A stretch of 29,839 nucleotides of DNA from IMG/VR virus record IMGVR_UViG_3300042301_002391, positions 1 through 29,839 of that record. The stretch is one strand, 5' to 3'. A program made the translations under genes and the position numbers. This stretch comes from a virus. The notes under the pieces are model-generated. The model ran no database searches. It worked only from the letters and a program-made list of their open reading frames with translations, and was not told where the DNA came from. Shown here piece after piece: positions 8,344 through 25,526 of the stretch; position 1 is the first letter of the stretch, and each line of letters begins with the position of its first letter.

Positions 8344-8684
8344 TCACGCCCGCGCGGTATGACATCACGATTCCGCAGCGTGGGACGTTCCGGCAGCGGA
8401 TGCGGCTCAAGACTGAAGGCGTGCCGCTGATCGCCATCGGCTATCAACTGGTCGCGCAGGTGTGGGATCGCCAGCGCACAACAAAGTTTGCTGATGGTGT
8501 GATCAATTGGATCGACCAGGCAACGGGCCTGTTCGAACTGGTGATCCAATATCAGGTGACGCGGCTGATCACGGAGGACGGGCGGTGGGATCTGATGGTG
8601 ATCGAGCCCGGGGGTGATCGCTACTACTGGCTGGAAGGCACCGCCTTCCTGGATCCGAATTACAGCGAGCCGGTGACGCCATGA
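8340..8684 (+). CDS. Small beta-sandwich structural protein near the fibre genes
   Basis: A 114-residue protein from ATG 8340 (ATGA overlap). The pattern of an N-terminal basic strand (ITIPQRGTFRQRMRLK), a central segment ending a domain (INWIDQATGLFELVIQYQ) and a closing DGRWDLMVIEPGGDRYYWLEG is typical of small Ig-like/BppU-like structural proteins that often precede fibre N-terminus genes. I would expect it to be an adaptor or fibre-anchoring component, but the sequence alone does not show this. The next gene overlaps its stop by ATGA. Confidence 0.6.
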   Translation: MITPARYDITIPQRGTFRQRMRLKTEGVPLIAIGYQLVAQVWDRQRTTKFADGVINWIDQATGLFELVIQYQVTRLITEDGRWDLMVIEPGGDRYYWLEGTAFLDPNYSEPVTP

Positions 8685-8698
8685 CCAACAAGGTGGCG
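8679..8698 (+). repeat. 20-nt repeat shared with 24001-24020
   Basis: The 20 bases covering the start of the 8681 gene (CC followed by ATGACCAAC and AAGGTGGCG) recur exactly at 24001-24020, immediately left of the sheath leader repeat. The flanking bases differ at both ends. A 20-nt match is unlikely by chance in a window of this size. Confidence 0.8.
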
Positions 8699-9076
8699 AT
8701 CGAGATTGTCGAAGCACCTGCCGTCGCTGTGGAGATTGTGCAGGAAGCTGGCGTGAAGGTGGTGGAGGTGCTCCACCCTGGCCCGCCAGAGCCGCAGTGG
8801 GTTGCGTTTGGCGGTGCGGTGCAGTCCAGCGTTGCGACCAACCAACTCCTAGGCGCGGCACTGCAGCAGGCTCCAGCCCTGGGGCTCGGACTTGGCGTCG
8901 GACTTGGCAAAGCAGCTGACGGCGATGCTCGCGTGTTTCTCAACTCTTGGGCTATCGCCAATAGCCTGGGTCTGGTTTCTGAGGCACTGCTGACCGAAGT
9001 GTTGGTGCTGGCGGAGCAGTTCAATTTTCCGGCCGAGTTTATCGCGAGGCTATGGGGCGGTTCACAGACTGAGTGA
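8681..9076 (+). CDS. Fibre-N-terminus-like protein sharing sequence with the giant fibre
   Basis: A 131-residue protein. Residues 4-30 contain a tandem (VAIEIVEAPAVAVEIVQEAG) and the turn HPGPPEPQ, the usual N-terminal style of phage fibres before a collagen-like or shaft region. The same DNA, lacking one 30-bp repeat unit, forms residues 28-43 of the large fibre at 9239. After residue 40 it diverges into a Gly/Leu-rich segment (ALGLGLGVGLGKAADGD) and a helical C-terminus ending LAEQFNFPAEFIARLWGG. It may be a short second fibre, a fibre-trimer base, or a stub left after the distal part was replaced. Function unproven. Confidence 0.7.
   Translation: MTNKVAIEIVEAPAVAVEIVQEAGVKVVEVLHPGPPEPQWVAFGGAVQSSVATNQLLGAALQQAPALGLGLGVGLGKAADGDARVFLNSWAIANSLGLVSEALLTEVLVLAEQFNFPAEFIARLWGGSQTE
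8689..8767 (+). repeat. Donor-side copy of the fibre-adaptor repeat
   Basis: 8689-8709 is identical to 9319-9339 (21 nt), and 8732-8767 matches 9332-9367 at 35 of 36 positions. The 9319 copy lacks 30 bp that are bounded here by GAGATTGT at 8702-8709 and 8732-8739, the signature of a deletion between short direct repeats. Confidence 0.85.
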
Positions 9077-9210
9077 GCCCCAGCGCAAATTGTGTAAATG
9101 GAAATGCAATTATCGGTGATGCGGACGATTCATTCAGCGCGACGGCTTGGGAGAGCGCTGCAACGACGTTTGCGTCGTCGCAGCAGTGGGTGCTGATGGC
9201 TTCGGCCTAG
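9073..9210 (+). CDS. Tiny ORF (45 aa) ending ASSQQWVLMASA
   Basis: GTG 9073 overlaps the preceding stop (GTGA) and opens a 45-codon frame whose reading is protein-like (NGNAIIGDADDSFSATAW, then ESAATTFASSQQWVLMASA). Its final 12 residues and stop lie in the 148-bp repeat and are identical to those of the ORF at 23984. The TAG stop (9208-9210) is the first half of the TAGAAT box. No family is recognised. It could be a small fibre-associated or leader protein, or the remnant of a longer fibre gene. The alternative frame from ATG 9098 is Arg-rich and less convincing. The ribosome site is poor, so translation would rely on coupling. Confidence 0.45.
   Translation: MSPSANCVNGNAIIGDADDSFSATAWESAATTFASSQQWVLMASA
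9163..9178. other. Hairpin at the left edge of the 148-bp repeat
   Basis: ACGACG-TTTG-CGTCGT is a perfect 6-bp stem with a 4-nt loop (two more outer pairs after one mismatch). The 148-bp repeat begins at 9172, inside the loop. No T-run follows, so a terminator is unlikely; the structure may mark a recombination edge. Confidence 0.4.
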
Positions 9211-9213
9211 AAT
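9208..9213 (+). promoter_or_regulatory. TAGAAT box before the giant fibre
   Basis: TAGAATC lies 25 bases before ATG 9239 and overlaps the TAG stop of the tiny ORF. It is identical in the sheath copy. Candidate -10 element; no clear -35 element. Confidence 0.35.
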
Positions 9214-9222
9214 CAATCCAAC

Positions 9223-9269
9223 AGGAGGCTCCTCCACAATGCCAACTAACTTCCTCCACGGCGTGGAGG
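9223..9269 (+). promoter_or_regulatory. Ribosome site with mutually exclusive hairpins (fibre copy)
   Basis: AGGAGG (9223-9228) is ten bases before ATG 9239. Two identical CCTCCAC heptamers (9231-9237 and 9253-9259) can each pair with GTGGAGG (9263-9269), and CCTCC can also pair with the ribosome site. One fold is a 7-bp stem with a 3-nt loop inside the coding region; another encloses the start codon. A translational control element is possible. Confidence 0.35.
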
Positions 9270-12200
9270 TACTTCAGACCGACATTGGCGGACGACCCAT
9301 CACGACGGTTCGATCCTCCAAGGTGGCGATCGAGATTGTGCAGGAAGCTGGCGTGGAGGTGGTGGAGCTGATCCACCTGGGACCACAGGGTCCATCCGGG
9401 ATAGCGTCAGTTAGCTCAATTATTGGCCTGCAAACTGCGCCTACAACCAATGCCGTTCTTGTCAAGCAATACTACGTCAATCACAATGAAGCAGCCATAG
9501 CGCTGCCATCGCCGCTCGAAGCCGGACCCGGCGGCGGCCTGTTTCAGTGGGAGCCTGATCTTCCTAGGTCGTTACATGATGGCGGCCTGTTCATCTCGCC
9601 GACCGTCCCCTATGACGGAACCAGGGGCAACCTGGTGGGCTTTCTCGGCAAGGTCGGAGAAACGGCCCCCAGCGCTAACGGCGTGTGGCGGCGGGCCTTT
9701 TCTGGCAATGTCATGGCGGATTGGTTCGGGTGCGTCAGCAACAGAATCGCTGACGACTACCCGTCCATTCAGAAAGCCCTAGACGTTGTGTTCGCGATGA
9801 ACAGCGTAGAGAGAGTGGGCAAGTGGTTCGTTGGGAAAACAAACGTTGTACAAATTGCCGGCAACTGCCGCATCAAGAGATACCTTGAAGTAGGAGCAAG
9901 GATGACGATCCAAGGGAATGAGAATACCTTGGTGTACCCTGTCCAGGATTCTAGTTTTGCCGGGGACTACAACGTAGCCGTCCCCTCCGTTATCTACGTG
10001 GATCCAGATTGTGTTTTATATCGACCAAACGACTATAACAGCGCCGTCGTATTGAGAGGAGACGCCTCTAAGTTGGATGGAATCGTGGTCGATGGGTATG
10101 AGATGGCCTTCGGGTCATGGTATCCAATCATCAAAATTGCAACATCCCCCCTAGCGGTTGGAGGGTCTTACGCATTTAACGGGGAGCTGTATGTCATCGA
10201 CCCCAACGATCCCAAGCAGAACAAGCCCATAGAGCTGGAAACGCTTGTCATACCATCCCATCAATATGGAGATGCCTGGTATGCAGGCTTTCAGCTAAAG
10301 GCAATGGGTGGCAATGTTACCGGCATTGGCCCAGGAACTTCCACTTATACTCAGATCACACCCGCCAACCCCTACCAGTGGGATGTTATAGGCGGCACCA
10401 TCCCTACTGGGTTCGCCGTATCGAAGTCTGGATGGGTTACCTGTAACGCAGCAACAGCTGTGATTGGCAAGCAGTTTGTAACGATTCGCGTAGCTGATGC
10501 TAGCGGCAGCACAGCACAGCGAGACCTCATCCTGGAGGTTACCGGGAAATACATAGAATTGCCCTTAGTTGGTATTCCTCCCGCTACCATAAATCAAGCC
10601 TATAAATATACCTTCAATGTTCTCAACAACGATGGCGTTGCCCATTATTGGTGGATAGTCAATGGTCCCGAGGGCCTGGTGATGAACCGTACTACCGGAG
10701 AGGTCACCGGCACGCCCGCCGCCGACTCGTTCGGACAGTACACACTAAAAGTGGCAATAACAAGCGCCACCAGTACAGCCAACTTTGAGGCCAATACTCT
10801 CATTGATGAAATCTTGATAGACTTCACGGTTGAGAATACCGCATACCCATCATTATATGGCAGCCTTTCAGATGCGGCTGTAGGGGTGGCTTACCAGGGG
10901 ATCATTTACCCTGTCGGCGGAGTTGGCCCGTTCACCTGGCAGATTGACCCTGCTCGTTCTACTGGGAACAACCAGGCCGGGTATCCAACCGCAACGTCAC
11001 CCGCTCCGGGGATAACTCTTTCGACCGATGGCATCAGAGCACTTGTAACAGGAACGCCTACAACGTCTGGAGACTTCTCGTTTTTCCTTATTGGCACTGA
11101 TTCAACCGGAAAATCGGTAAGTGGGCTTATCAGCTTTTTAGGGAACACATGGGCAGCAAGACCACAGCTGAAGACATCCCTGATTTGGAATCTTCCTGTT
11201 GCCGTCAAGGGCCAGCCATATTCCTATCAGGTTGAGGCTACTGTATCAGGCTGCACCTTTAGCGCAAAGGCATTGCCTTCCGGCCTGGCGATCTCCGCCG
11301 AAGGCCTCATTTCAGGCACTCCTCTTGGCGGCAGATATGCCAATGGGGTCGCGTGTGAATGGAGCGTCAAGATGAGTAATTTTACAGTAAGAAACTTCAG
11401 GGGTGGTGCAGGCGTCAAAGTTGATGGGCCTAGCAACGTCCACATTTTTGAAAACTTCTTTATCAACGCATGCGACGTAGGCATATCGTCCGACAATATG
11501 TTCGACTCACGGTTACAGAGCTTCTATATCTACAACACAAGAATTGGCCTGCAAATGAGGGGCGGAACTGCCGCTAATACCTACACTAACGGAAGAATTG
11601 AATACATTCATGAGCATGGTGTTACCGCCTTGTTCTCTCCAGACAATGTATGGAGCACTGTCTACTGGGATACCTGCGGGTACGCTGCAATAAGCGCTGA
11701 TCGCTCCGATTACTGGACAATGAGCGGCTGCTTCTTTTTTCGAGGTGGGCGGCGCGTCCCGCCAAGGGGCAAATACTATATGCCCGATAGTCCCGTGGAT
11801 ATTTCTACTCACATTAAAGCTATTAGCTGCAAAGACTGGGTTATCGGCACTAATAACATGGTGCGAGGATGCGACAATGGGGGGTCTAGCTCAACTTACC
11901 TTAGGAGGTACGAATCAAACGGCAGAAGGCTTTACATCCGGCCTTATGCTTCCATTGTCATGGAGCGCTGCAAGGGGTTCAAGATAACCGGCAATGGGCT
12001 AGACGGCTGCACAAGAGAATCTATCGTCTCAGTAGAAAGCGAATATGAATTTGAATACAACGATGCTCTTTTGAGCGGGAATACGGTCCACCGAACGAAC
12101 CAATTTGAAACCTTCTCGCAGAATGAACAACCCGTCATAAATTTACTGAAAAACCCTACTAAGGCTAATTTCACACCCGAAGGCACCGAGGACAATGTAG

Positions 12201-13549
12201 ACACTTACTTTCCCAGCAATGTACTTTTACTCTCGGGAAATGAATTTGTCGATAGAAGCACAAGGGGCTTAACCGTAAACAATACAAACGTCACAATCAA
12301 CACATCTGTTTACAGGTTTGGTACGGGTAGCTTCTCTTTTAATGGAACAAGCGCATTGTTGACTGTGGGTGTAGCTGACAACAACAACGTCACTGCTCCG
12401 TTTTACTTTGGCACAGATGATCTTACTTTAGAGTTTTTGGTTTATCCGCTTAGGAACAATGTAAGTCAAACCCTGATTGACTTTGGGGCTACGTCTGAAT
12501 CTGCCCCGTTCGCGCTCATTCTTGACGCAAATGGAAGGCTAGCGCTAGCCAGGAATCGCAGCACAAGCGGACAAACCATAGATGCCACCAGTGCTCGGAC
12601 GATCCCAGTAAACGCTTTCACTAAGATCACTATGACCATAACCAGGGGTATGGCAAGAGTATATATTGACGAGTCTATCGAACCAAGCCTAACTATTTCG
12701 TTTAGCGGAAGGTTCATGATTTCCGGGTATAACAGACCAATCATGGGTCGCGGTGGGTTTACGGGGGCAACCGATTTTTTCCAGGGATACATGCAGCAGA
12801 TTAGGATAACTAAACCTGTTTCCAGGTACGGGCTGCTATCAGCGCTGAGGCCGCAGACTCGCGCATTCAGCATTGTGAACCTTGGCTCCCTGCCACCGGA
12901 TACCCTTGTGTATTCTCCTGCTGCTGCGGAAACAGAATTCTTTTTTGCGGACCGATCTAATTCTATTAAGCTGGGCCCCAGTTCTTCTATTCAGAAACCA
13001 GTCTATGTAACCAGAAGATCAAAGAACGACATCGTTACCGATCGAAGGGCAGGCCTGGGCTCCTACAATGCGGGCCAGGTGAACCCGTCTTACTATATTT
13101 ATCGATTGCAAAAGGCAGCTGAGACGGGGGTTACGGCCTACACATTCCAGACCTGTGAGTTCAGGGCATGGGTCGCACGGCCGGGCTACCCAGAGGAGCT
13201 GGATAGGATCCGAGGGAAAAAACTGCTCTTATGTCTTTGGGCAAGGTCTGCTAGAAAAAACTCGGTTTCTCTTTTCACGCAGTTCTACGCCGGAACAAGC
13301 GGCAACAATTTCAAGGTTGAAGGGGGCTTTCACACTAAGTTCAACGTGCCTCCATTCTGGAGAAAATATACATTCGCCATTGAGGCACCAGACCTAGACC
13401 TGACACTTGTCGATCCATATACTTCCAATGCCTTATTGAAGTTCTACCTCGACGACAAGTCACAGACCTATGACCTGGAATTCGGGGCGATGTTTTTGTA
13501 CGAAGATGATGGGAAGTTTGGGTTCACTTCGGGGGCGACGGATCAGTGA
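9239..13549 (+). CDS. Giant chimeric tail fibre/tailspike (1436 aa) with sheath-derived N-terminus
   Basis: Residues 1-27 copy the sheath N-terminus; 28-43 copy the 8681 gene; a short GPQGPSG turn follows. Residues about 150-260 look like the start of a pectate-lyase-type beta-helix tailspike (VMADWFGCVSNRIADDYPSI). About 368-715 hold four bacterial Ig-like (He_PIG-type) units with VTGTP/ISGTP signatures. About 714-1010 return to beta-helix (NVHIFENFFINACDVGIS), about 1014-1198 form a LamG/concanavalin-like domain (YRFGTGSFSFNG, MQQIRITKP), and the rest a carbohydrate-binding-like beta domain. It probably binds, and may degrade, host surface polysaccharide; catalytic residues cannot be fixed by eye. 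From about 9400 the DNA is visibly more AT-rich with different codon use, indicating transfer. Confidence 0.88.
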   Translation: MPTNFLHGVEVLQTDIGGRPITTVRSSKVAIEIVQEAGVEVVELIHLGPQGPSGIASVSSIIGLQTAPTTNAVLVKQYYVNHNEAAIALPSPLEAGPGGGLFQWEPDLPRSLHDGGLFISPTVPYDGTRGNLVGFLGKVGETAPSANGVWRRAFSGNVMADWFGCVSNRIADDYPSIQKALDVVFAMNSVERVGKWFVGKTNVVQIAGNCRIKRYLEVGARMTIQGNENTLVYPVQDSSFAGDYNVAVPSVIYVDPDCVLYRPNDYNSAVVLRGDASKLDGIVVDGYEMAFGSWYPIIKIATSPLAVGGSYAFNGELYVIDPNDPKQNKPIELETLVIPSHQYGDAWYAGFQLKAMGGNVTGIGPGTSTYTQITPANPYQWDVIGGTIPTGFAVSKSGWVTCNAATAVIGKQFVTIRVADASGSTAQRDLILEVTGKYIELPLVGIPPATINQAYKYTFNVLNNDGVAHYWWIVNGPEGLVMNRTTGEVTGTPAADSFGQYTLKVAITSATSTANFEANTLIDEILIDFTVENTAYPSLYGSLSDAAVGVAYQGIIYPVGGVGPFTWQIDPARSTGNNQAGYPTATSPAPGITLSTDGIRALVTGTPTTSGDFSFFLIGTDSTGKSVSGLISFLGNTWAARPQLKTSLIWNLPVAVKGQPYSYQVEATVSGCTFSAKALPSGLAISAEGLISGTPLGGRYANGVACEWSVKMSNFTVRNFRGGAGVKVDGPSNVHIFENFFINACDVGISSDNMFDSRLQSFYIYNTRIGLQMRGGTAANTYTNGRIEYIHEHGVTALFSPDNVWSTVYWDTCGYAAISADRSDYWTMSGCFFFRGGRRVPPRGKYYMPDSPVDISTHIKAISCKDWVIGTNNMVRGCDNGGSSSTYLRRYESNGRRLYIRPYASIVMERCKGFKITGNGLDGCTRESIVSVESEYEFEYNDALLSGNTVHRTNQFETFSQNEQPVINLLKNPTKANFTPEGTEDNVDTYFPSNVLLLSGNEFVDRSTRGLTVNNTNVTINTSVYRFGTGSFSFNGTSALLTVGVADNNNVTAPFYFGTDDLTLEFLVYPLRNNVSQTLIDFGATSESAPFALILDANGRLALARNRSTSGQTIDATSARTIPVNAFTKITMTITRGMARVYIDESIEPSLTISFSGRFMISGYNRPIMGRGGFTGATDFFQGYMQQIRITKPVSRYGLLSALRPQTRAFSIVNLGSLPPDTLVYSPAAAETEFFFADRSNSIKLGPSSSIQKPVYVTRRSKNDIVTDRRAGLGSYNAGQVNPSYYIYRLQKAAETGVTAYTFQTCEFRAWVARPGYPEELDRIRGKKLLLCLWARSARKNSVSLFTQFYAGTSGNNFKVEGGFHTKFNVPPFWRKYTFAIEAPDLDLTLVDPYTSNALLKFYLDDKSQTYDLEFGAMFLYEDDGKFGFTSGATDQ
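9319..9367 (+). repeat. Fibre-adaptor repeat inside the giant fibre
   Basis: This matches the 8681 gene from 8689 on, minus 30 bp, and joins the sheath-derived segment exactly at 9319/9320 in frame. It supports a recombination join between the sheath leader and a fibre gene whose original 5' end resembled the 8681 gene. Confidence 0.85.
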
Positions 13550-15054: not shown

Positions 15055-15311
15055 TGCCAGCCGTCATCCGCATCGGGGATCCAGGCAGCCATGGCGGCGC
15101 GGTCGCCACCGGCAGTCCAGACACGACCGCGAACGGCATTGGTGTCGCCCGCGTAGGTGACACCTACAACTGCCCGATTCACGGGCCCAACGCCATTGTC
15201 ACCGGCAGCACAGACACCACTGCCAACGGCCAGGCCGTCGCGCGCGTGGGGGATCAGACTGCATGTGGTGCCACCCTCCAGGGCGGCAGTCCTGACGTGG
15301 AGGTGAACTGA
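15054..15311 (+). CDS. PAAR-repeat spike tip protein
   Basis: An 85-residue PAAR protein that caps the V needle with a sharp metal-stabilised cone. Repeated GDPGSHGG, VARVGD and ANG motifs are visible, and a metal-site set H13, C40, H43, C71 matches the usual His/Cys ligands. It sits between V and W with ATGA overlaps on both sides. P2 itself lacks a separate PAAR gene because gpV binds iron at its own tip, so this arrangement is closer to type VI secretion and other myophages. Confidence 0.93.
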   Translation: MPAVIRIGDPGSHGGAVATGSPDTTANGIGVARVGDTYNCPIHGPNAIVTGSTDTTANGQAVARVGDQTACGATLQGGSPDVEVN

Positions 15312-15649
15312 TGGCCGGCATGAGCCGCACCACTGGCGCAGCGCTGGAAGGCTTCGACCACCTGAAGCAGTCGATCGCCGACATCCTCTCCACCCCCCTG
15401 GGGACGCGGGTGCATCGGCGCAACTACGGCTCACGCCTCATGGGCCTGGTCGATCGACCCATCAACCAGTTCCTTGTTGCTGACATGGTGGCCGCAGCAG
15501 CCGAGGCGCTTGACCGCTGGGAGCCGCGGCTGAAGGTGGAGCGCCTCACGATCGACAGGGTGACGGCCGATGGGCAGATCGAGCTCAGCCTGTCTGGCTA
15601 CTATCTGATCAACGGCCAGCAGGTCACGTTCGAGGGGTTGGTGCTCTGA
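15311..15649 (+). CDS. W: Baseplate wedge protein W (gp25-like)
   Basis: A 112-residue protein (P2 gpW is 115) of the T4 gp25/P2 W family. HLKQSIADILSTPLGTRVHRRNYGSRL (about 17-43) is the family core, and IELSLSGYYLINGQQVTFEG near the C-terminus is the closing strand pair. It is a baseplate wedge component that contacts the first sheath ring. ATG 15311 overlaps the PAAR stop; ATG 15320 would shorten it by three residues. Confidence 0.94.
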   Translation: MAGMSRTTGAALEGFDHLKQSIADILSTPLGTRVHRRNYGSRLMGLVDRPINQFLVADMVAAAAEALDRWEPRLKVERLTIDRVTADGQIELSLSGYYLINGQQVTFEGLVL

Positions 15650-22868: not shown

Positions 22869-23984
22869 ATGAGCAGCCTCCGCGTCCAGCAGCTGCAGCA
22901 CCCCAGCGCATCCTCCCCGGCATTGGCCCTGGCGAACGACGGGACCGCTGCTGCGCAGCTCAGCGCCATCAACGGCGGGCCGCTCGCCGGTTTCCGCAAC
23001 GCCATCATCAACGGCAACTTTGACATCTGGCAGCGCGGCACCAGCTTCAGTGCATCGGTCTACGCTGCCGACCGCTGGCTGAATGGCTACCTGGGCAGCA
23101 GCGCGGCGATGAGCCGCCAGCCCTTCACCCTGGGCCAGAGCAACGTCCCCGGTGAGCCGCGGTTCTTCAGCCGCACCGTCGTCACCTCCGTGGCCGGAGC
23201 CAGCAATTACTCGATCTTGCTGCAGCGAATCGAAGGCGTGCGCACCTTTGCCGGCCAGACGGTCACCATCAGCTTCTGGGCGAAAGCCGACGCCAGCCGC
23301 TCGATCGCGGTGGAGCTGATGCAGTGGTTTGGCACCGGCGGCTCGCCCAGCTCCATGGTGTCTGGGATCGGCGCAACGAAGGTTGCGATTGGCACCACCT
23401 GGCAGCAGATCAGCCTCACGGTCACTGTGCCCTCCATCGGCGGCAAGACGCTCGGCACCGCCGGCGATGACTACCTGGCGCTCAACATCTGGTTCGACGG
23501 CGGCAGTAGCCACAACGCTCGCAACGCCACCCTGGGCCAGCAGTCGGGCACGTTCGATATTGCCCGGGTGCAGGTAGAACCCGGCGGGTTCTGCACACCG
23601 TTCGAGCTGCGGCCGCTTGCAACCGAACTGGCCCTGTGCCAGCGCTACTACGAGAAGTCCTACGACCTTGACACCATCCCCGGCACTGCCACCGACACCG
23701 GCCTGGTGGGCGGGCAGTGCATCTACTACTTATCGACCACTGCTTACGCGCCCCCTGCGCCGGCGGTGGCTTATCGCGTCACGAAGCGCGGCACCCCGCA
23801 GCTCACCTTCTGGAACCGTTCGGGCACCGCCAACCAGTACAGCCAGTACTACAACGGAGTGTGGGCGAACCAGGCCACCGTGCCTGTCGTGCTCTCCAAC
23901 AGCACGAACGGGCTCCTGGTCTACCCCAACGCCTACGTCGCCAGCATGCTCTTCCACTTTGCTGCTGACGCAGAGCTGGTCTGA
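22869..23984 (+). CDS. Carbohydrate-binding-like phage fibre/tip protein
   Basis: A 371-residue protein. GFRNAIINGNFDIWQRGTSF (about 47-66) followed by ADRW is a familiar phage motif of a jelly-roll carbohydrate-binding domain; VTISFWAKAD (about 135-144) and the LFHFAADAELV end fit the same fold. The last about 120 residues carry Tyr-rich loops (RYYEKSYDLD, ANQYSQYYNGVW) that could contact host glycans. ATG 22869 follows the collar stop closely. Its stop overlaps the ATG of a tiny ORF that leads to the sheath gene. Confidence 0.78.
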   Translation: MSSLRVQQLQHPSASSPALALANDGTAAAQLSAINGGPLAGFRNAIINGNFDIWQRGTSFSASVYAADRWLNGYLGSSAAMSRQPFTLGQSNVPGEPRFFSRTVVTSVAGASNYSILLQRIEGVRTFAGQTVTISFWAKADASRSIAVELMQWFGTGGSPSSMVSGIGATKVAIGTTWQQISLTVTVPSIGGKTLGTAGDDYLALNIWFDGGSSHNARNATLGQQSGTFDIARVQVEPGGFCTPFELRPLATELALCQRYYEKSYDLDTIPGTATDTGLVGGQCIYYLSTTAYAPPAPAVAYRVTKRGTPQLTFWNRSGTANQYSQYYNGVWANQATVPVVLSNSTNGLLVYPNAYVASMLFHFAADAELV

Positions 23985-24064
23985 TGCCCGGCAATTTTCT
24001 CCATGACCAACAAGGTGGCGTTGGCGCGTCGTCGCAGCAGTGGGTGCTGATGGCTTCGGCCTAG
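23984..24064 (+). CDS. Tiny ORF (26 aa) ending ASSQQWVLMASA, upstream of sheath
   Basis: ATG 23984 overlaps the preceding stop. The peptide starts MPGNFLHDQQGGV, with a first-residue resemblance to the sheath start MPTNFLHG, and ends in the same 12 residues as the ORF at 9073. Bases 24001-24020 come from the 20-nt repeat shared with the 8681 gene start but read in another frame. The TAG stop is part of the TAGAAT box. It could be a leader peptide or a deletion remnant; expression is unproven. Confidence 0.4.
   Translation: MPGNFLHDQQGGVGASSQQWVLMASA
24001..24020 (+). repeat. 20-nt repeat shared with 8679-8698
   Basis: Exact copy of the start of the 8681 gene. Only five bases (24021-24025) separate it from the 148-bp leader repeat, whereas 473 bases separate the two pieces near 8698-9172. 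The order is the same at both places, so the present locus looks like a deletion derivative. Confidence 0.8.
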
Positions 24065-24067
24065 AAT
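24062..24067 (+). promoter_or_regulatory. TAGAAT box before the sheath gene
   Basis: TAGAATC, 25 bases before ATG 24093, identical to the box at 9208. Candidate -10 element; no clear -35 element. High sheath demand would fit a promoter here. Confidence 0.35.
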
Positions 24068-24076
24068 CAATCCAAC

Positions 24077-24123
24077 AGGAGGCTCCTCCACAATGCCAAC
24101 TAACTTCCTCCACGGCGTGGAGG
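24077..24123 (+). promoter_or_regulatory. Ribosome site with mutually exclusive hairpins (sheath copy)
   Basis: Same arrangement as at 9223-9269: AGGAGG, CCTCCAC at 24085-24091 and 24107-24113, and GTGGAGG at 24117-24123. All are identical in both copies. Confidence 0.35.
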
Positions 24124-25526
24124 TACTTCAGATCGACACTGGCGCACGACCCATCACGACGGTTCGATCCTCCGTGATCGGTGTGATCGGCACCGCTCCC
24201 GATGCTGATGCTGCTGCGTTCCCTCTCAACACTCCGGTGTTGATCGTCAGTAAGACCGAGTACGCCAGCCTCGGCGACGCCGGCACCCTGAAGCAGGCAC
24301 TGGATCTGATCTACGCCCAGGCCGGTGCGGTCGTCGTGATGATCCGCGTCGCCGCTGGCGCTGGCGACGAGGCCACCATCACCAACGTGGTTGGCGGCAC
24401 CAACGCTGGAACCGGAGCCTACGAAGGGGTCTACGGATTCCTGGCATCGGAAAACGCCGTTGGCTTTGCGCCCAAGGTGCTGATAGCTCCTGGCTTCAGC
24501 CATCAGCGGCACGCCAACGGCATTCTCACCATCCCCGTCACCACTCAGGGCAGCGGCTACGTCACCCCCCCGCCTGTGACCATCGGCGCCCCTGCCAGCG
24601 GCGGTGTGCAGGCCACGGCCACCGCAGTGCTCGGCACCGGGGCCAACGCCGGCAAGGTGCTGAGCATTCGGATTGACAACCCCGGCACCAACTACACCGG
24701 CACGGTCACCGTCACGATTGGAGCTCCGCCTTCTGGTGGTGTCCAAGCGGTGGCCGGCACCGCCACCAAGGGCACCGTTCGTAACCGAGTCGTCTCCGAG
24801 CTGCTCAGCATCGCGGATCGCCTCCGGGCCGTGATCATTGCCGACGGGCCCGACACCACCGACGACGCCGCGATCCAAGCCGCCGATGACTTCGGCTCCC
24901 GCCGGGTCTACCTCGTCGATCCCTGGGTCGTGGTCGGTGGCGTCACCATGCCCGGCTCGCCTGCTGCAGCCGGGATCATCAACCGCACCGACAACGAGCT
25001 GGGCTTCTGGTGGTCACCCTCCAACAAGGAGGTCTACGGCATCGAGGCCACCAGCCGCGCCATCGACTTCGCTTTGGGTGACGCCAACTCCCGCGCCAAC
25101 CTGCTCAACGAGCAGAACGTCGCCACCATCATTCGTGAGGGCGGCTTCCGCCTTTGGGGCAACCGAACCCTCTCGATCGATCCGCTCTACTCGTTCCTCT
25201 CGGTGGTGCGCACGGCGGACATGATCAACGAGTCGATCCTCCGTGGCCACCTCTGGGCCGTGGATCGCTGCATCACCGCCACCTACCTCGAGGAGGTGAT
25301 GGAGTCGGTGCGGCAGTACCTGCGCACCCTCAAGGCCCGTGGTGCCATCTTAGGCGGTGACGTCTGGGTGGATCCCGAGCAGAACACCCCCACATCCATC
25401 GCCAATGGGCAGGTGGTGTTCGACTTCGAGTTCACGCCTCCCTATCCGGCCGAACGCGTCACGTTCCGCAGCCACCTGGTCAACACCTACGTGGTCGACC
25501 TGTTCGCTGCGCTCCCTGCCGCCTGA
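24093..25526 (+). CDS. FI: Contractile tail sheath protein (P2 FI-like)
   Basis: A 477-residue sheath protein (P2 FI is 396). The N-terminus MPTNFLHGVEVL through VIGVIGTAPDAD, then FPLNTPVLIVS, matches P2-like sheaths; the C-terminal half has ADMINESILRGHLWAVDR, YLEEVMESVRQYL and GDVWVDPEQNTP. The first 27 residues are the arm that threads into neighbouring subunits in contractile sheaths. Compared with P2, a stretch of about 85 residues (about 141-227), two copies of a strand module with VTIGAPASGGVQA / VTIGAPPSGGVQA, is inserted after VLIAPGFSH; it should sit on the outer surface. AGGAGG precedes the ATG. Confidence 0.96.
   Translation: MPTNFLHGVEVLQIDTGARPITTVRSSVIGVIGTAPDADAAAFPLNTPVLIVSKTEYASLGDAGTLKQALDLIYAQAGAVVVMIRVAAGAGDEATITNVVGGTNAGTGAYEGVYGFLASENAVGFAPKVLIAPGFSHQRHANGILTIPVTTQGSGYVTPPPVTIGAPASGGVQATATAVLGTGANAGKVLSIRIDNPGTNYTGTVTVTIGAPPSGGVQAVAGTATKGTVRNRVVSELLSIADRLRAVIIADGPDTTDDAAIQAADDFGSRRVYLVDPWVVVGGVTMPGSPAAAGIINRTDNELGFWWSPSNKEVYGIEATSRAIDFALGDANSRANLLNEQNVATIIREGGFRLWGNRTLSIDPLYSFLSVVRTADMINESILRGHLWAVDRCITATYLEEVMESVRQYLRTLKARGAILGGDVWVDPEQNTPTSIANGQVVFDFEFTPPYPAERVTFRSHLVNTYVVDLFAALPAA

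Follow-up and report, generated by a model that had tools for sequence, protein, structure and literature searches.

The giant fibre gene of a freshwater cyanobacterial virus (IMG/VR record IMGVR_UViG_3300042301_002391, positions 1-29,839; the whole of this 29,839-nucleotide stretch is referred to here as the window) begins with a copy of the leader and the first 27 codons of the phage's own tail sheath gene. At the level of sequence, the comparisons below establish the transfer, its content, the in-frame junction and its presence in several strains: in an ancestral form of this Cyanobium-type myophage, DNA extending from the 3' end of a gene that we call Y across the sheath leader and as far as sheath codon 27 was evidently copied to the fibre locus, where it joined, in frame, the adaptor of a fibre that had been acquired. 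The fibre would thereby have gained the sheath's expression signals together with a handshake arm able to dock at acceptor sites on the sheath or baseplate. We favour this reading tentatively, rating docking and co-expression as just short of probable.

The original prediction had described a 148-bp duplication (145/148 identical) that carries TAGAAT, AGGAGG and 27 codons, and both a repeat search and BLAST within the record recovered exactly that. The two copies (Table 1) form a direct repeat of 148 nt with 98% identity (E = 3e-70 for the pair), the sole long one that the repeat search found in the window. On the sheath side, TAGAAT lies at 24062-24067 and AGGAGG at 24077-24082; the start ATGs are at 9239 in the fibre gene and 24093 in the sheath gene, and the repeat ends after codon 27 in both. 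The 67-nt leader is free of mismatches. All of the mismatches (3/3) fall in the coding part and are non-synonymous, giving T14, I16 and G18 in the fibre and I14, T16 and A18 in the sheath. We rejected phase variation as a role for the repeat because its copies have the same orientation, and a crossover between the two would remove the terminator and baseplate genes.

Table 1. Coordinates of the fibre-locus and sheath-locus features in the window.
Feature	Position	Strand	Basis
ORF of 131 aa immediately before the fibre gene; it too begins with the adaptor (MTNKVAIEIV)	8681..9076	+	ORF list, repeat search
3' end of gene Y, open frame ...NAIIGDADDSFSATAWESAATTFASSQQWVLMASA*, stop overlapping TAGAAT	9073..9210	+	match to Y of relatives
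Fibre-side copy of the repeat: sheath leader and codons 1-27, start of the fibre gene	9172..9319	+	repeat search, BLAST, contigs L005/L006/L007
TAGAAT, -10-like box of the captured leader	9208..9213	+	sequence; conserved in sheath leaders
AGGAGG, ribosome-binding site of the fibre gene, same as the sheath's	9223..9228	+	sequence
Fibre gene, 1436 aa: arm 1-27, adaptor 28-56, acquired body 57-1436 with He_PIG and Laminin_G_3	9239..13549	+	ORF, domain search
Sheath N-terminal arm, fibre residues 1-27	9239..9319	+	arm profile, E 1e-11
Adaptor KVAIEIVQEAGVEVVELIHLGPQGP, usual N-terminus of the lineage at the fibre locus	9320..9406	+	paralogous to ORF 8681; relative L139:5343 MTQVQIEIVQEAGVEVVEVIHPGPQGP
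Y remnant before the sheath gene, 26 codons, MPGNFLHDQQGGVGASSQQWVLMASA*	23984..24064	+	full-length Y at this place in L073, L087, L019
Exact 20-bp duplicate of 8679-8698 (start of ORF 8681), lying within the Y remnant	24001..24020	+	fibre-locus DNA at the sheath locus
Source-like copy of the repeat: leader and sheath codons 1-27	24026..24173	+	repeat search; leader conserved before sheath genes only
Gene of the 477-aa tail sheath; residues 1-25 predicted as a detached arm, core starting at 29	24093..25526	+	PF04984, PF17482, phrog_23; model

The fibre gene is a three-part mosaic. Its arm is identical to that of its own sheath at 24/27 residues. The following stretch (residues 28-56) resembles both ORF 8681 and the first gene at the same locus in the relative L139, and in L139 and L140 different genes lie between gene 8307 and the tail terminator, that is, at the position of the fibre. 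The protein as a whole matches tail-fibre families, phrog_24092 (tail fiber) included, and is without the subtilisin-like or C-terminal sheath domains (PF04984/PF17482, phrog_23); its sole sheath-family match covers residues 1-43, to the sheath-N-terminal family phrog_11242. An AlphaFold model of fibre residues 1-300 has a mean pLDDT of 28, too low to be informative.

Over residues 57-1430, identity to fibres on other viral contigs, most of them larger (27,978 to 279,339 bp), is 73-93%; a Synechococcus phage B23 protein matches the body at 47%. One N-terminus is common to the bodies in L128, L130 and L133, while L127, L129 (collagen-like) and L132 each have another. The alternative that relatives' fibres always begin in the same way, independently of the sheath, therefore fails, since homologous bodies elsewhere carry other N-termini. 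The fibre behaves as a modular tail fibre, with a body common to several phages and exchangeable N-termini, and the body was, as judged from these alignments, acquired horizontally. Comparison of window positions 9407-13546 with L127-L134 points to cross-lineage transfer of a 1380-residue fibre. The DNA of the fibre junction had no match in the annotated phage collection. We also observed that the start codon of the tail terminator (GTG) overlaps the fibre stop at 13546-13549, and the captured leader may therefore affect terminator expression as well.

The upstream part of the copy has a sheath-specific distribution. The leader pairs CCTAGAATCAAYC with GACAGGAGG shortly after it, in this form or in close variants, about 30 nt before the sheath gene, and it is present in more than 30 freshwater phage contigs whose sheaths are 70-100% identical. 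A form written CTAGAATCAAYC...GACAGGAGG, again about 30 nt before the sheath start, was seen in L008, L009, L045-L066 and others. Across the loci compared, the exact leader 13-mer occurs once per locus, before the sheath, the fibre contigs excepted, and in the window it occurs at the two copies only. The capture of sheath expression signals and of the N-terminal arm that had been predicted is borne out by this pattern: the leader is, from its distribution, a sheath-specific, deeply conserved element, the codons match the sheath arm, and the promoter-like sheath leader now precedes the fibre gene as well. That the leader acts as a promoter we infer from its -10-like box. We claim no promoter use from a sigma-70 consensus scan because it returned fewer sites than shuffled sequence and the leader was absent from its list.

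Such a leader may be all that selection has kept. The fibre could have retained the segment for the strong promoter-like element and ribosome-binding site of the sheath, with attachment provided by the adaptor at residues 28-56; the 27 codons would then be passengers, carried along because an in-frame join needs a start codon. The perfect identity of the 67-nt leader with that of the sheath fits this explanation, as do the restriction of the leader to sheath genes in the many contigs above and nowhere else in the window or the loci, the status of the adaptor as the lineage's usual N-terminus at this locus, and arm changes that are non-synonymous without exception. We consider expression capture with a passenger arm a serious possibility, though on balance a somewhat improbable one, as three observations stand against it: where the copy ends, which residues it has kept, and the separate possession of an arm by gene Y.

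The end of the copy can be placed on the architecture of the sheath. The sheath protein matches phrog_23 with E = 3e-115, its closest fold is the R2 pyocin sheath, and its arm aligns to that sheath (PA0622) from residue 2 onward. In a model built from 33 sequences, residues 1-25 have pLDDT below 50 and the first core strand spans residues 29-34. The arm of the E217 sheath (gp31) comprises residues 1-23, with a hinge at 24 (PMC10329688), and residues 1-23 of the Milano sheath (gp20) lie within the handshake domain (PMC10811340). Together, the model and these two arms indicate that the copy ends at the predicted arm/core boundary, and not just past the start codon. Most conserved arm residues are also retained: in an alignment that includes Y, 12 positions of the arm (residues 1-27) reach at least 90% conservation, and the fibre keeps all 12. 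One of the three replacement changes, I14T, hits a site at which sheaths are at least 90% conserved; this, and the absence of silent changes among the three, suggests relaxed or altered constraint on the fibre arm. In a separate part of the sheath, residues of about 142-223 form an insert that matches the tail-fibre families phrog_5342 and phrog_17885; there is therefore fibre-like sequence inside the sheath too.

Structures of other phages show what such an arm does. In E217, it contributes one strand of a four-stranded sheet formed with adjacent sheath subunits, and a collar protein provides the equivalent strand at the top ring (PMC10329688). The C-terminus of the Mu terminator also makes such a sheet (PMC11915804). 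At the baseplate of phage 7-7-1, a pocket of wedge 1, which otherwise corresponds to the surface of a neighbouring sheath subunit, captures the N-terminal part of the sheath of the last ring (PMC12796354). Arm acceptor sites thus exist on both the sheath and the wedge, and non-sheath proteins take part in these contacts.

We searched for further arm carriers at several scales. With the arm profile, 40/41 records were found to bear an arm, and 38 of these 40 have a single one, belonging to the sheath in 37 cases and to the fibre in one (G001, where the sheath is off the contig). A second arm, in Y, was found in G009 and G010; the profile used (A2) includes Y rows, so these two matches are not independent evidence. 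Arm-like starts sampled by pattern in viral contigs ran into a sheath in 83/97 of the matches listed, and the other 14/97 of those listed belonged to unrelated genes, cut contigs or broken frames; besides Y and the fibre, no non-sheath arm carrier was found in the sampled phages among these matches. A forty-residue arm profile run against 399 host-order genomes matched in two genomes only: in one, the Cyanobium contig that underlies L087, it hit both the sheath and Y, and in the other it hit one further 477-aa frame. In annotated phages, a 95-residue sheath query matched at 334 places in 333 records and is too insensitive for short arm copies. The family phrog_20240 (272 aa; sheath residues 1-95) was tried as a second class of arm fusion and set aside, as only the Cyanobium sheath matched among 61 genomes. 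In the open literature, with subscription journals mostly outside the search, we found no fibre with a sheath arm.

Gene Y gives insight into both the origin of the copied stretch and the earlier history of the arm. In the relatives L073, L087 and L019, it occupies the interval from the counterpart of gene 22869 to the sheath gene (L073:8544-9479, L087:8649-9434, L019:1789-2850) and encodes a sheath-like arm, ATTF-type repeats and a variable C-terminal domain; a second small gene follows, and then the sheath. The Y protein of L019 matches phage structural families, and that of L073 begins with the arm MFAFLHGIEVLDGDNGRLIRASRPRVNGVIGS. Against a sheath-arm profile built without Y, Y arms scored E values of 1e-4 to 8e-4 among 20,048 frames, and the score of the Y arm against its own sheath was reached by 0/2000 shuffles. 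By these measures, Y carries an older, diverged sheath-like arm. The combination of such an arm with repeats in Y indicates that in this lineage the sheath arm has been added to a non-sheath protein on two occasions, first in Y and then in the fibre. Y is absent from L011 and L012. Y had no match in the annotated phage collection, a degenerate Y-specific pattern search gave zero matches, and L145, a candidate relative of Y, turned out to be an ordinary sheath.

The window retains Y only in pieces, and these define the extent of the transfer. The open frame upstream of the fibre gene (Table 1) matches Y of L019 with 63-72% identity over 25-27 aa (E 2e-6 against all frames of the loci), including 72% over 25 aa for NAIIGDADDSFSATAWESAATTF; the same frame is 48% identical to Y of L073 and L063, and its DNA is 74% identical to L019 over 62 nt. 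Because the 3' end of Y lies upstream of the fibre, the copied stretch must have begun in the interior of Y, taken in the sheath leader and ended with sheath codon 27. The duplicated DNA thus reaches further upstream than 148 bp, starting in the 3' end of Y, and it is the loss of Y at the sheath locus that fixes where the exact repeat ends on the left. With the Y end at the fibre locus and 20 bp of ORF 8681 at the sheath locus, each locus holds sequence of the other, and the junctions are mosaic at both.

This reciprocal mosaicism, including the 20 bp of fibre-locus sequence in the Y remnant, is also what a functionless recombination accident might leave behind: in a single phage species, the Y/sheath junction and the fibre locus would have recombined illegitimately, and the product would have been tolerated so far without being lost. 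Its confinement to a single species-level cluster is in keeping with such an accident. Against it, the join is in frame, the leader, start codon and downstream frame are open in every contig that covers them, and the junction is common to strains whose fibre bodies differ at 108 codons. We therefore regard an accident without function as unlikely.

The strain comparison comes from an exact-pattern scan. With the window included, four contigs, each from a different IMG/VR dataset, have the fibre copy (the window; L005, whose 19.4-kb record is L141; L006; and L007), and three have the sheath copy (the window, L008 and L009). Presence of the repeat in relatives, a check proposed with the original prediction, was thus observed, with the same junctions recurring. 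L005, L006 and L007 all have ORF 8681 sequence upstream of the copy and the fibre body attached, and their arm proteins are identical. The fibre of L007 differs from that of the window in 110 codons, and L007 is therefore a distinct strain. These differences comprise 77 silent and 31 replacement changes in the body (108 codons), one replacement in the adaptor and a single silent change in the arm. Two contigs of dataset 3300020571, L007 (fibre) and L009 (sheath), read TTCAGCC where both window copies have TTCGGCC; this common base hints that the copies still exchange sequence, or that the assembler mixed them there. Dataset-specific bases common to fibre and sheath copies (24026-24173, L007, L008, L009) are likewise a hint of gene conversion or assembler mixing. 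The repeat itself is not an assembly artefact, since four contigs from different datasets have the fibre copy and three the sheath copy. A wrong joining of sheath-gene reads to the fibre gene is extremely improbable: short-read assemblers can be misled by 148-bp repeats, and the TTCGGCC/TTCAGCC polymorphism is common to a fibre and a sheath contig of one dataset, but the junction recurs across datasets, three fixed differences separate the copies, extra Y sequence lies upstream of the fibre copy, and the 1436-codon frame starts inside the join.

On the docking reading, which we tentatively propose, expression of the fibre would use the promoter-like box and the ribosome-binding site of the sheath itself, and the protein would start with the sheath handshake arm. 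During tail assembly, this arm would enter an arm-acceptor site, the candidates being the C-terminal beta-hairpin of a sheath subunit at either end of the sheath and the matching pocket of the gpW/gp25-like wedge at the baseplate; gpW is encoded at 15311-15649 of the window. The contractile tail would then hold the fibre by its arm, with the older adaptor either acting alongside the arm or replaced by it. Y, with its older arm, repeats and further domain, would represent an earlier use of the same trick, its own function being presumed, and would have been destroyed in the window genome while the fibre gained its arm. We favour docking because the breakpoint lies at the arm/core boundary, conserved residues are kept, fibre N-termini are modular and Y has an arm too; it is further supported by the published arms, which are docking strands, and by the non-sheath proteins that join such contacts. 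Strict mimicry is weakened by retention of the adaptor and by the three replacement changes, I14 being nearly invariant among sheaths. Since the lineage's usual adaptor is kept, attachment of the fibre may not need the arm. Arm acceptors are already full in published tails, and a docking fibre must therefore compete for them or take a special or end position. More broadly, arm grafting may be a repeated way in this lineage to hang adhesins, first Y and then the giant fibre, on the moving sheath or on end acceptors with sheath expression, a generalization that we consider possible but rather doubtful.

Some phages carry fibres on the contractile sheath, and newly acquired fibres need a mounting. 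A fibre that copies the coupling arm of the sheath would suggest a simple attachment rule, a 27-residue tag on an unrelated protein, and it shows that the leader and interaction motif of a structural gene can move together as one module. Fibre residues 1-27 are the same sheath arm as in E217 gp31, Milano gp20 and R2 pyocin PA0622, but unlike in those systems, the arm sits on a protein without a sheath domain. The collar or terminator proteins E217 gp29 and Mu gp37 are likewise non-sheath strand donors, and by analogy the fibre may add a strand as they do; they use a C-terminal extension of their own, however, with no copied sheath N-terminus and no fibre. Hair-like fibres along the sheath are found in the jumbo phages CBB (PMC5259590) and phAPEC6 (PMC7247149), at three annular positions in the latter (PMC7247149). 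The likeness would lie in fibres on a contractile sheath, and the difference is that CBB and phAPEC6 are unrelated giants. As in N-terminal adaptor exchange among tail fibres, a moving body has received a phage-specific N-terminus; unlike in the usual exchange, the added N-terminus is the phage's own sheath arm, delivered with the sheath leader. Because docking is something that we infer, the case belongs with fibre N-terminus exchange and is not filed as a new category. Finally, sheath proteins of types 2 and 3 have extra outer domains ('Evolution of Phage Tail Sheath Protein', PMC9230969) and similarly put adhesin-like domains on the sheath. In those proteins, the domain is inserted in the sheath protein, whereas here it is the sheath arm that has been placed on a separate fibre.
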